Part shown: positions 9,984 through 46,982 of the stretch, piece after piece
How the letters are laid out: every line of letters starts with the position of its first letter
How positions within the stretch are numbered: the first letter of the stretch is position 1
Source of the DNA: Streptomyces luomodiensis
Lineage (GTDB): Bacteria; Actinomycetota; Actinomycetes; Streptomycetales; Streptomycetaceae
DNA: 64,000 nucleotides
Assembly: GCF_031679605.1 (NCBI RefSeq)
Contig: NZ_CP117522.1
Coordinates: 5,518,001 to 5,582,000 of the forward strand
Direction of reading: 5' to 3'
Notes under the pieces: generated by a model
What the model was told of the DNA's origin: nothing
Seen by the model: only the letters and a program-made list of their open reading frames with translations
Database searches by the model: none
Translations under genes and position numbers: made by a program

Positions 9984-11447
9984 ATGACCCAGCAGAACAG
10001 ATTCCTTCAGCGGTCTCGTCGTTCTTTCCGGCGTTGGGGCGTGGCCTCAGCGGGCGCCATCGCGGCGGCGGCTCTGGTCACCGGTGCTCCGGGAACCGCA
10101 TGGGCCGCGAGCAGCACCCCCGGTCCGCACACGGCCCCGAGCAACCCGTGCCACCAGGACCGGGCGCACGGTGACAACAAGGCGCACCAGGAGGACGGCC
10201 GCCACGACGAGAACAACGGCAAGGACGCTCACGGCCGCCAGGACGAGAAGGGTGGCAAGGACGCCCACGGTCGCCACGAGGAGAATGGCGGCAAGGACAC
10301 GCACGGCCGCCAGGACGAGAATGGCGGCAAGGACACGCACGGCCGCCAGGACGAGAATGGCGGCAAGGACACGCACGGCCGCCAGGACGAGAATGGCGGC
10401 AAGGACACGCACGGCCGCCAGGACGAGAATGGCGGCAAGGACACGCACGGCCGCCACGAGGAAAACAGCGGCAAGGACACCCACGGCCGTTACGACGAGA
10501 ACTCGCGCCAGGACGAGAACTCGCGCCAGGACGAGAACTCCCGTCAGGACGAGAACTCCCGTCAGGACGAGAACTCGCGCCAGGACGAGCACGGCAGCGA
10601 CGACGAGAACAGCCGTCGTGACGACAACGGGAGCCAGGAGGACAACGCGCGCCAGGAGAACAACGACCGGCGCGATGACCACGGGCGCAAGGACAGCGCC
10701 AACAGCTACTCCAAGAACCAGCAGTACGGGCACGGCTACCAGCAGCGGGGCGTGGCACTCGCCGAGCAGGCCGTCCAGCCGTACGAGGCGGCCGTTTCCG
10801 CCGCGATCTCCGAGGGCGGCCGTGCCGTCCGGCCCGTCAGCGCTCCCGTCCACCAGGACGACCAGGCGCGCCACGACCAGGAGCACCAGGAGCGCCGCGA
10901 CCAGGAGCGCCAGGAGCGCCACGACCAGGAGCGCCAGGAGCACAAGGAGCACAAGGAGTCCCAGCAGTCCAAGGCTCACCAGGACCAGAAGAAGAGGGGC
11001 CTGGTGACGATCGCCGAGGCGATCGAGATCGCCGAGTGCGAGGTCAGCGGCCAGGTCATCAGCGCTGAGCTGGAGGACTGCCCCGAGGACGACTCACAGC
11101 ACGAGGGCAAGGGCAAGCACCAGGACGAGCGCAAGCAGGACCGCAAGGACGACCACCGCAAGGACGACCACCGCAAGGACGACGACCGCAAGAACCGGCA
11201 CCAGCAGGAGGTCAAGCAGGTCTGGGTCGTGGAGGTCGAGTGTGACGGCACCGTCACGACGGTCTATATCGACCCGGAGACCGGCTGCGTCCTTGGCACG
11301 GAGCAGGAGCAGGACGACGACCACGGCAAGGGCGACCACGGCAAGGGCGACCACGGCAAGGGCGACCACGATAAGCACGGCAAGCAGAGCGGCTACGGCG
11401 ACCGTGAGGGCAAGGGCGGCTACGGCCGGTCGGCGGTCACCGCCTAG
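9984..11447 (+). CDS. secreted, highly charged repeat protein with split PepSY-like domain
   Basis: 487 residues. The N terminus SRRSFRRW plus a hydrophobic core ending AWA is a Tat-like signal peptide. Residues ~60-170 are 12-residue repeats of the [12 protein letters not shown] type, followed by six-residue SRQDEN repeats. A spacer with little charge follows ([17 protein letters not shown]), then more Gln/Glu/Arg/His-rich sequence. The C-terminal part reads as two halves of a PepSY fold: [24 protein letters not shown], and [27 protein letters not shown], split by a ~40-residue KDDHRK-rich insert. Four Cys sit in these halves, so disulfides are plausible. The tail has DHGKG repeats. PepSY domains often inhibit proteases or sense the envelope; the function here is unknown. 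It overlaps convergent ynfA by 11 nt. Confidence 0.8.
10202..10500 (+). repeat. in-frame 36-bp tandem repeat
   Basis: About eight 36-bp units (12 codons). Four consecutive units (Gln codons at 10311, 10347, 10383, 10419) are identical at DNA level; flanking units vary by a few bases. The near-perfect identity indicates recent expansion by slippage or recombination. Confidence 0.9.
10501..10590 (+). repeat. in-frame 18-bp tandem repeat
   Basis: Five 18-bp units encode SRQDEN-type hexapeptides. Serine and arginine codons alternate between tcgcgc and tcccgt, so the array is partly diverged. Confidence 0.85.
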
Positions 11448-43676: not shown

Positions 43677-44036
43677 GTGAACGCATACGCGCCCATCCTC
43701 GTACTGGGAGCCCTCGGGGCAGGATTTGCGATCTTCTCGGTGCTCATGGCCGCGATCATCGGCCCCAAGCGCTACAACCGGGCCAAGCTCGAAGCCTATG
43801 AGTGCGGCATCGAGCCGACTCCGCATCCGGCCGGCGGTGGGCGCTTCCCCATCAAGTACTACCTGACGGCGATGCTCTTCATCGTCTTCGACATCGAGAT
43901 CGTCTTTCTCTACCCCTGGGCCGTCACCTTCGACGCCCTCGGCCTGTTCGGGCTCGTGGAGATGCTCCTCTTCGTGCTCACCGTCTTCGTCGCCTACGCC
44001 TACGTATGGCGACGCGGCGGCCTGGAGTGGGACTAA
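43677..44036 (+). CDS. nuoA: NADH-quinone oxidoreductase subunit A
   Basis: 119 residues, three membrane helices of the complex I membrane arm: NAYAPILVLGALGAGFAIFSVLMAAIIGP, FPIKYYLTAMLFIVFDIEIVFLYPWAV and LVEMLLFVLTVFVAYAYVWRRG. The conserved loop YECGIEPTPHP with its Cys lies at the quinone site. GTG 43677 has AGGGAG at suitable spacing. It is the first gene of the nuoA-N operon, preceded by a Rex operator. Confidence 0.96.
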   Translation: MNAYAPILVLGALGAGFAIFSVLMAAIIGPKRYNRAKLEAYECGIEPTPHPAGGGRFPIKYYLTAMLFIVFDIEIVFLYPWAVTFDALGLFGLVEMLLFVLTVFVAYAYVWRRGGLEWD

Positions 44037-44068
44037 AGGGGCTCAAGAGGAGATAGGGGAAACATCGC

Positions 44069-44623
44069 ATGGGTATCGAAGAGAAACTGCCGAGCGGGTT
44101 CCTGCTCACCACCGTGGAACAGGCCGCCGGTCTGGCTCGCAAGTCCTCCGTCTTCCCGGCCACCTTCGGCCTGGCCTGCTGCGCCATCGAAATGATGACC
44201 ACCGGCGCCGGGCGCTATGACCTCGCGCGCTTCGGCATGGAGGTCTTCCGCGGCTCGCCCCGCCAGGCCGATCTGATGATCGTCGCCGGGCGCGTCAGCC
44301 AGAAGATGGCCCCGGTGCTGCGCCAGGTCTACGACCAGATGCCGAACCCGAAGTGGGTCATCTCCATGGGCGTCTGCGCCTCCTCCGGAGGCATGTTCAA
44401 CAACTACGCGATCGTCCAGGGCGTCGACCACATCGTCCCGGTCGACATCTATCTGCCCGGCTGTCCGCCGCGTCCCGAGATGCTCATGGACTCGATCCTC
44501 AAGCTGCACCAGAAGATCCGCGAGGAGAAGCTCGGCGTCAACCGCGAGCGTGCGGCCCGTGAGGCGGAGGAAGCGGCGCTGAAAGCGGTGCCGACGATCG
44601 AGATGAAGGGGCTGCTTCGGTGA
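44069..44623 (+). CDS. nuoB: NADH-quinone oxidoreductase subunit B
   Basis: 184 residues. Carries cluster N2, the last iron-sulfur centre before quinone: tandem Cys in [11 protein letters not shown] (37, 38), Cys103 in [10 protein letters not shown] and Cys132 in [12 protein letters not shown] 44069 has GGGGAA upstream. The C-terminal helix (about 148-184) is Glu/Ala/Lys-rich. The stop TGA lies inside the GTGA that starts the first of three repeated 31-codon frames, unlike the usual direct junction to nuoC. Confidence 0.97.
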
Positions 44624-44715
44624 GCGACGCGCACGAGGCCGCCGGGCCGCAGACGACGACGAAGGCCGCACCTCTGCGCCTCGTGGGCGGAGAAGCGAAC
44701 GGAGGGACACGGTGA
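44620..44715 (+). CDS. 31-aa micro-ORF, copy 1 of 3 (nuoB-nuoC spacer)
   Basis: GTG start overlapping the nuoB stop (GTGA), with GAAGGGG upstream. The peptide begins [20 protein letters not shown] and ends GGEANGGTR. There is no membrane segment, and the Thr/Ala/Gly composition suggests disorder. It ends in a TGA overlapping copy 2. Translation is plausible from its signals but unproven; it may serve only to pass ribosomes to nuoC. Confidence 0.4.
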
Positions 44716-44807
44716 GCGACGCGCACGAGGCCGCCGGGCCGCAGACGACGACGAAGGCCGCACCTCTGCGCCTCGTGGGCGGAGAAGCGAACGGAGGGAC
44801 ACGGTGA
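44712..44807 (+). CDS. 31-aa micro-ORF, copy 2 of 3
   Basis: Identical peptide to copy 1. GGAGGG (44701-44706), supplied by copy 1, lies five bases before GTG 44712, and the start overlaps copy 1's stop by 4 nt. The frame is shifted relative to copy 1, so the three copies cannot be read as one long protein. Confidence 0.4.
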
Positions 44808-44899
44808 GCGACGCGCACGAGGCCGCCGGGCCGCAGACGACGACGAAGGCCGCACCTCTGCGCCTCGTGGGCGGAGAAGCGAACGGAGGGACACGTTGA
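44804..44899 (+). CDS. 31-aa micro-ORF, copy 3 of 3
   Basis: The same peptide again, in a third frame. Its stop is the TGA of the TTGA overlap with the nuoC start. If the unit was originally single, this copy is probably the ancestral neighbour of nuoC. Confidence 0.4.
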
Positions 44900-45648
44900 C
44901 TGAGGCCAATGGGGTCAACGGACCCAACGGGGTCAACCCGGACCAGGACCTCAATGCCGAGAACCTCCCCGGTCGCCGCGGCGACCAGGGCGAGCCCATC
45001 CGCGTCCAGCGCGGCATGTTCGGCGCCAACAACGGCGGCGACACCACCGGCTACGGCGGGCTGGTGCGCCCCGTACGGCTGCCCGGCCAGGCCACCCGGC
45101 CGTACGGGGGCTGGTTCGACGAGGTCGCCGACGAACTCGAGGGCGCGCTCGAGGAGCAGTCGCTGCTCCCGGAGAACGCCATCGAGAAGACCGTCGTGGA
45201 CCGCGGTGAGCTGACCTTCCACATCGCCCGCGAGCACCTGCCGCGGGTCGCCCGGACCCTGCGCGACGACCCGGCGCTCCGCTTCGAACTGTGCACCGGC
45301 GTCAGCGGAGTGCACTTCCCCGGCGACAAGGGCCGTGAGCTGCACGCCGTCTACCACCTGCGGTCGATCACCCATAACCGGGTGATCCGGCTGGAGGTGA
45401 GCGCCCCCGACAGCGATCCGCACATCCCGTCGATCGTCGATGTCTATCCGACCAACGACTGGCACGAGCGCGAGACCTACGACTTCTTCGGCCTGATCTT
45501 CGACGGTCATCCCGCGCTGACGCGGATCATGATGCCCGACGACTGGCAGGGCTTCCCGCAACGCAAGGACTACCCGCTCGGCGGCATCCCCGTCGAGTAC
45601 AAGGGCGCCCAGATCCCGGCTCCGGACCAGCGGAGGTCGTACAGCTGA
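44896..45648 (+). CDS. nuoC: NADH-quinone oxidoreductase subunit C
   Basis: 250 residues. The first ~40 residues are Asn/Gly-rich ([18 protein letters not shown]). The 30-kDa subunit domain then includes [41 protein letters not shown], and the signature [17 protein letters not shown]. The start is TTG 44896, since GGAGGG lies five bases upstream and no ATG/GTG fits. The same position in the repeats holds GTG, so a single base distinguishes nuoC's start from the micro-ORF starts. The stop overlaps nuoD by one base. Confidence 0.94.
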
Positions 45649-46982
45649 TGACTGCCCCCCACGCAACCCCCTCGGCGTCCGCGCGCGAGACGACCGAAGG
45701 CACCGTCTACACCGTCACCGGCGGTGACTGGGACGAGGTCGTGGCCGCCACGGCGAAGGCCGACGACGAGCGGATCATCGTCAACATGGGTCCGCAGCAC
45801 CCCTCCACCCACGGGGTGCTCCGGCTGATCCTGGAGATCGACGGCGAGACGGTCACCGAGACCCGCTGCGGAATCGGTTATCTGCACACCGGAATCGAGA
45901 AGAACCTCGAATTCCGGAACTGGACGCAGGGCACCACCTTCGTGACGCGCATGGACTATCTGACGCCCTTCTACAACGAGGCGGTGTACTGCCTGGGCGT
46001 CGAGAAGCTGCTCGGCATCGAGGACCAGATCCCGGACCGGGCCTCGGTGATCCGGGTGCTGCTGATGGAGCTCAACCGGCTCTCCTCGCACCTGGTGGCC
46101 ATCGCCACCGGCGGTATGGAGCTCGGCGCGACCACGATCATGATCTACGGCTTCCGTGACCGCGAGATGATCCTGGACATCTACGAGCTGATCACCGGTC
46201 TGCGGATGAACCACGCGTACATCCGGCCCGGCGGTCTCGCGCAGGATCTGCCGCCGGGCACGGTCGACCAGATCCGGGCCTTCCTGAAGACGATGCGCAA
46301 GAACATGGCCGAGTACGACAAGCTGGCCACCGGGAACCCGATCTTCAAGGCACGGCTCCAGGACGTCGGCTATCTCGACCTCGCCGGCTGCATGGCGCTC
46401 GGCGTGACCGGTCCGATACTGCGGGCCACCGGACTCCCGCACGATCTGCGCAAGTCCGATCCGTACTGCGGCTATGAGACCTATGACTTCGAGGTGCCGA
46501 CCGCCGACACCTGCGATGCCTACGGCCGCTTCCTGATCCGGCTGGAGGAGATGCGCCAGTCGCTGCGGATCGTCGAGCAGTGCCTGGACCGGCTGGAACC
46601 GGGGCCGGTGATGGTCGCGGACAAGAAGATCGCCTGGCCCGCGCAGCTGGCGCTCGGTCCGGACGGCCTCGGCAACTCCCTGGACCACATCAAGAACATC
46701 ATGGGCACCTCGATGGAGGCCCTGATCCACCACTTCAAGCTGGTGACCGAGGGATTCCGGGTCCCGCCCGGACAGGTGTACGCGACGGTCGAGTCGCCCA
46801 AGGGCGAGCTGGGCGCACACATGGTCAGCGACGGCGGCACCCGCCCGTACCGCGTCCACTTCCGCGACCCGTCCTTCACCAATCTGCAGGCCGTGGCGGC
46901 GATGTGCGAGGGCGGCCAGGTCGCCGATGTGATCGTCGCCGTCGCATCCATCGACCCCGTGATGGGAGGAGTGGACCGGTGA
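45648..46982 (+). CDS. nuoD: NADH-quinone oxidoreductase subunit D
   Basis: 444 residues of the 49-kDa subunit lining the quinone pocket: [66 protein letters not shown] and [23 protein letters not shown] 45648 overlaps the nuoC stop (TGATG), and the stop overlaps nuoE (GTGA). Confidence 0.97.

Follow-up and report, generated by a model that had tools for sequence, protein, structure and literature searches.

Three tandem copies of a probable MIRU-like Streptomyces repeat between nuoB and nuoC of Streptomyces luomodiensis

The window, a stretch of 64,000 nucleotides from Streptomyces luomodiensis, contains the forward-strand genes nuoB and nuoC (Pfam matches PF01058 and PF00329, respectively). 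An array of three base-identical units of 92 nt lies between them. The features of the locus, in window coordinates, are as follows.

44069..44623, + strand: nuoB, open reading frame with Pfam match PF01058; its stop codon TGA (44621-44623) shares bases with the unit 1 GTG
44606..44611, + strand: AAGGGG, SD-like word in the 3' end of nuoB, read from the sequence; putative role
44618..44619, + strand: CG ahead of the first NTGA, apparently the left copy of a 2-bp duplication; the same CG recurs at 44894-44895
44620..44711, + strand: unit 1, 92 bp, with GTG start, 31 sense codons and a TGA overlapping the next GTG
44701..44706, + strand: GGAGGG, SD-like tail of unit 1
44712..44803, + strand: unit 2, identical
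44793..44798, + strand: GGAGGG, SD-like tail of unit 2
44804..44895, + strand: unit 3, identical
44885..44890, + strand: GGAGGG, SD-like tail of unit 3, ahead of the nuoC TTG
44894..44895, + strand: CG ahead of TTGA, apparently the right copy of that 2-bp duplication
44896..45648, + strand: nuoC, open reading frame with TTG start and Pfam match PF00329

The frame of a single unit is composed of GTG, 30 further codons and TGA. The four junctions of the array read GTGA, GTGA, GTGA and TTGA, each a 4-nt overlap of a stop and a start, and the first T of the last one is the first base of the nuoC start (44896). Inside each unit GGAGGG is followed by ACACG and then by the next start, so that the 3' end of the unit preceding that start reads GGAGGGACACG. 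An earlier sequence-only reading had described these GTG...TGA micro-ORFs, their tails and their overlaps accurately to the base, and the coupled stop/start architecture that it proposed is borne out by the junction sequences. The TRF score of the array (557) is the top one among the 36 TRF rows in the window. Elsewhere in the window, a long 36/18-bp tandem repeat of about 11.5 copies occupies 10195-10665 and is perhaps a repetitive coding region.

The unit is widespread within its genus. A search of its own genome with the unit DNA gave 19 matches, and R1, a profile of 17 units based on sequence alone, found 23 units at 13 loci (E<=2.8e-5). At E<=1e-5, matches were obtained in 148 of 392 Streptomyces genomes. 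At the same threshold 61 of 197 genomes matched in a sample of the order and 12 of 296 in a sample of the class, all of them Streptomyces, which is one of 6 genera in the former and one of 114 in the latter; the genomes outside Streptomyces in these two samples gave zero matches. Copies per genome are lower bounds, as 10 (genus), 21 (order) and 14 (class) candidates were scored per genome. In an initial set of 61 genomes, the top match from a genome other than Streptomyces (E 1.9e-4) was taken as chance. Mycobacteria were very probably among the class genomes searched, since the PE family occurs in 21 genomes of an equal-sized class sample (296 genomes), assuming that the draw was identical. 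The unit had no match in the plasmid and phage collections or in Rfam and Pfam, and no description of the repeat in Streptomyces was found among the matches listed from the open-access literature. The array between nuoB and nuoC is not a product of chance, given its recurrence at 13 loci of the genome and in 148 genomes of the genus, and the unit is a dispersed repeat rather than a nuo-specific complex I cassette. Between sites of one genome the identity of units reaches at most 0.95, hence most insertions look old. For 90 of 170 units the closest counterpart in another genome occupies the corresponding site (8.9 expected), which points to much vertical inheritance.

The placement of the repeat was evaluated in a main set of 120 arrays with 156 units, taken among the best-first matches listed, where weak or odd copies are under-sampled. 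This set omits the second views L160 and L205 and keeps L166, a partial, truncated repeat view of L208. In 98 of the 120 arrays both neighbours are chained: the first NTGA closes the upstream frame and the last stop overlaps the downstream start, with flanking frames of at least 50 codons required on each side, a lenient test in GC-rich DNA. Thirteen arrays are in frame with the next gene (nine left-coupled and fused, four fused only with no upstream frame closed), seven, whose head is degraded or whose left frame is not open, are coupled only on the right, and two, one of them the truncated view, show neither coupling nor fusion. A stricter filter of coding composition is passed on both sides by 85 arrays and failed by 35, whereas the remaining same-strand DTGA words of these loci (D = A, G or T) pass it in only 47 of 1079 cases. 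The right junctions tallied (n=99) are DTGA in 95 cases and CTGA in four. The excess of SD-like words is modest: they occur in 109 of 123 tails and in 70% of shuffled tails.

The flanks of the main set fall into 37 site clusters, and those of an enlarged fetched set (157 arrays, 223 units) into 47. From the ends of the encoded proteins, read by eye, we take these sites to include nuoB-nuoC, nuoD-nuoE, argC-argJ, gatA and its neighbour, purQ-purL, ribE-ribA, a trkA pair, a penicillin-binding protein and rodA, serS and a HAD hydrolase, and a two-component regulator and its kinase; the family names were tested by Pfam for nuoB, nuoC and one permease. The nuoB-nuoC junction was compared in 80 named relatives, a comparison that the sequence-only reading had put forward along with its view that the units were inserted there. 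The insertion is upheld, as the junction is empty in 76 of the 80. The remaining four have units. Four of the 80 relatives carry a unit about 2 kb further on, at a junction read by eye as nuoD-nuoE (L010:4075-4163, L015:4147-4216, L023:4042-4129 and L072:4084-4169, all from other species), and the repeat occurs at the same by-eye junction in L172, L201, L216, L223 and L225. Some genomes with a unit at nuoD-nuoE are empty at nuoB-nuoC.

Most coupled units (104 of 123) measure 92 or 95 bp and the others span 47 to 134 bp; since coupling is defined by frame, these lengths are 2 mod 3 by construction. The independent evidence for a frame rule is the spacing of unit heads and the scarcity of broken frames. 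The spacing was scored for 36 unit-to-unit steps from 22 tandem arrays: 26 steps are 2 mod 3, eight of which come from a single array, nine are 0 mod 3 and one is 1 mod 3; counted by array, the figures are 14, 7 and 1. The steps of 0 mod 3 measure 90, 93 or 114 nt and are read through in frame, and at an aroK-like gene such a spacing turns the units into an N-terminal extension. Units of 116 bp (L090:960-1191, L094:993-1108) consist of the 92 bp with an inner insertion of 24 nt, and consequently keep the frame rule. In Mycobacterium tuberculosis the units of VNTR3239 also differ by 24 bp (55 and 79 bp; PMC2734929), which is possibly a coincidence.

The number of units varies between close relatives. 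A same-species comparison genome (G384) was matched to Streptomyces sp. S465 (L009) by the coordinates and sequence of its nuo locus. Copy number differs between the window genome and S465 at 7 of 12 compared loci, a list that leaves out the weak locus 4287485 (E 2.8e-5). The copies in the window genome and S465, respectively, are 3 and 1 at nuo, 2 and 3 at gat, 3 and 1 at each of rod, GT and aro, 1 and 0 at ABC, and 2 and 0 at ser, where an element-like head is left at the start of the S465 gene; trk, rib, bgl, ppm and 7202468 have one copy in both genomes. The total for S465 is 12 units, consistent across two separate counts. The tandem expansion and strain-variable copy number foreseen in the sequence-only reading thus hold for the nuo array itself. 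Of the 157 distinct arrays in the enlarged fetched set, 39 have two to nine units. The nine-unit arrays, with spacings of 89 and 92, lie at L323 (G174:C772:9469-10266) and L173/L205 (G243:C226:9208-10032); nine is the highest copy number seen, found in these two genomes.

Empty counterparts of filled sites are common. The gat site is empty in 28 of 30 loci. The site next to an ABC permease is filled in the window genome and empty in S465 and six close relatives, where the junction reads GTGCCGGC followed directly by ATGAGTGCC; the net difference is 95 nt, and the unit is absent from all 12 comparison loci fetched. This distribution indicates a recent gain. Presence and absence at orthologous sites, by which the mobility of MIRU is judged, is found here as well and points to a mobile unit.

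The sites also preserve a possible footprint of insertion. At 13 of 34 sites the final two bases of the last unit are the same as the two that precede NTGA in the left flank, where permutation predicts 5.7 (p 0.0012), with single-position agreement of 0.59 at -2 (0.38 expected) and 0.65 at -1 (0.37 expected). At nuo, the start context of nuoC reads CG-TTGA in L010 and L015, both empty at nuoB-nuoC, and the filled site reads CG-GTGA...CG-TTGA. The AAGGGG of nuoB, which precedes the nuoC start in empty relatives, precedes unit 1 in the window, and the tail of unit 3 now faces nuoC. Compared in this way, the junctions suggest that the unit enters immediately ahead of the start codon and that a short stretch is duplicated. 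On the other hand, 21 of the 34 sites do not agree at both bases, and the youngest insertion, at the ABC site, has no clean 2-bp duplication. Since the left G of GTGA seems to come from the element and the right D from the target, single-strand transposition of the HUH/Y1 type was weighed; it was set aside as a poor fit to two agreeing bases on both sides.

The interpretation that best joins the family, its filled and empty sites, the open chained frames, the varying copy number and the near-neutral change of the peptide, all of which are read directly from the genomes, is that the array most probably represents three tandem copies of a MIRU-like, translation-transparent mobile repeat of Streptomyces that inserts at start codons. 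The unit would insert directly upstream of a DTGA start, usually one that overlaps the preceding stop. Since the unit head is usually (A/G)TGAGC, the upstream gene would keep its stop there, overlapping the new start. The unit would then supply a start, about 31 open codons, an SD-like tail and an overlapping stop, and so relay the ribosome to the displaced gene; with the usual length of 92 nt, which is 2 mod 3, the stop of the unit would fall on the start of that gene. Ribosomes finishing nuoB may therefore restart on unit 1, then on units 2 and 3, and then on nuoC, presumably at little or modest cost to NuoC expression. The frame would act as a bridge, encoding a peptide with no visibly selected sequence. 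Tandem copies would be gained and lost, presumably through recombination or slippage, and wherever the added length is a multiple of three the result would be read-through or an N-terminal extension of the next protein. Movement itself is probably carried out by an enzyme.

The mycobacterial interspersed repetitive units (MIRU), reportedly described by Supply and colleagues in 1997 (cited in PMC12548453), are the closest parallel. A 2025 review presents MIRU as apparently mobile, inserted at start codons and carrying an inner ORF coupled at -4 spacing (PMC12548453). Other sources give 46-101 bp and, for M. tuberculosis H37Rv, 41 loci of which 12 vary (PMC3914561), or a length of 40-100 bp and a proposed role in differential translation (PMC2734929). 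The Streptomyces repeat resembles MIRU in size and dispersal (mostly 92 or 95 bp, 13 loci in the genome), in start-codon insertion with overlap coupling (both neighbours chained in 98 of 120 arrays) and in a tandem copy number that varies between strains. However, MIRU belong to mycobacteria, whereas the repeat matched one genus only at E<=1e-5, and some of its copies are fused in frame to the N-terminus of the next protein, with an apparent 2-bp duplication also seen. It is called MIRU-like, and not MIRU, because it occurs in another genus and MIRU were compared by description rather than by sequence alignment. A scan of two-component regulator loci in three PE-bearing genomes gave no recognisable unit. 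Tandem arrays were seen near response-regulator genes of PE-bearing genomes at L376:1105-1344 (56 bp x 4.3, 100% match) and L353:2264-2497 (105 bp x 2.3).

Two other kinds of element share some of these traits. REP, MITE and other small palindromic repeats are small, non-autonomous and dispersed, as is the Streptomyces repeat, but the latter has no inverted repeat at its termini (agreement at 3 of 12 terminal bases, the inverted pairs being internal), sits at start codons, is directional and has an open frame. The translation of short upstream ORFs has been proposed to deliver the ribosome to the coupled next gene (PMC12548453). The unit is similar in this respect; unlike such locus-specific leaders, it is a dispersed repeat of variable copy number.

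The frame is open in nearly all fetched copies and the head and tail of the unit are well conserved, as would be expected if it encoded a functional small protein, either of complex I, as the sequence-only reading had held possible, or of a more general kind. At the five best-sampled sites, however, pN/pS of the unit is 0.82, 0.94, 0.91, 0.76 and 1.06, against 0.28, 0.23, 0.05, 0.28 and 0.32 for the last 30 codons of the upstream genes. The downstream codons give 0.19 at an argJ-like site, the downstream rows being unaligned at most sites. In six smaller clusters the unit gives 0.90-2.83 and the upstream genes 0.07-1.22; three of them, with upstream values near or above 1, suggest a mixture of non-orthologous neighbours, and for this reason the smaller clusters were not relied on. 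The three codon positions are conserved to much the same degree (0.87, 0.84, 0.87), and Pfam gave no match. The peptide is near-neutral at the five best-sampled sites, where the purifying selection expected of a small-protein gene was not found, and what is conserved seems to be the DNA of the unit, not its peptide. A small protein is thus very improbable, and one specific to complex I was rejected on these ratios and on the 47 flank clusters, only two of which are recognised as nuo junctions. A structured RNA acting in cis between the genes is equally improbable. One of six folds (five units, one on both strands) reached z -2.4, the consensus shows two short recurring stems and the window unit holds an inner inverted pair of 12 nt, but the fold of the window unit has z -0.24 and the other folds 0.08 to 0.46. 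Moreover, the covariation term is -0.04 (17 sequences), a double change occurs in 1 of 13 pairs, and Rfam has no match up to E 1 across 44000-45700 of the window. RNA structure was rejected on the weak fold scores and the missing covariation.

The perfect identity of the three copies could also be produced by an assembly artefact. This is extremely unlikely and was rejected: the genome is one contig, multi-unit arrays are common elsewhere in the fetched set, and the gat, rod, GT and aro arrays of the same genome hold non-identical units. A different proposition, raised in the sequence-only reading as possible tuning of the NuoB:NuoC ratio, is that the array is an attenuator governed by copy number, in which ribosomes would be lost at each stop and restart, making the downstream-to-upstream protein ratio a function of array length and placing that length under selection. 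The difference in copy number within the species at 7 of 12 loci agrees with this, as does differential translation within an operon, one of the functions proposed for MIRU-VNTR (PMC2734929). On the other hand, the SD-like tail could limit ribosome loss and the sites show no visible common logic, and the proposition is regarded as possible but rather unlikely. More doubtful still is an extended version, in which the units would be micro-genes born in Streptomyces and convergent with MIRU, an enzyme would recognise the start (SD-like word and DTGA) and leave a 2-bp duplication, and copy number would be a heritable dial of protein ratios in core operons, by eye those for complex I, arginine, the cell wall and riboflavin.

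Translation-preserving repeats are known mainly as the MIRU typing markers of tuberculosis bacteria. With the MIRU-like mobile repeat as the preferred reading, the presence of a distinct family in apparent core operons of Streptomyces (148 of 392 genomes) makes it testable in safe laboratory strains whether such repeats are harmless passengers or dials of expression. The repeat also offers a marker for strain typing, and it carries a warning for annotation, as some N-terminal extensions and 31-aa frames would be repeat debris. As a minor observation on the same gene, nuoC of Streptomyces longwoodensis begins with a very long low-complexity stretch (L054:1578-2081), with no unit within it.
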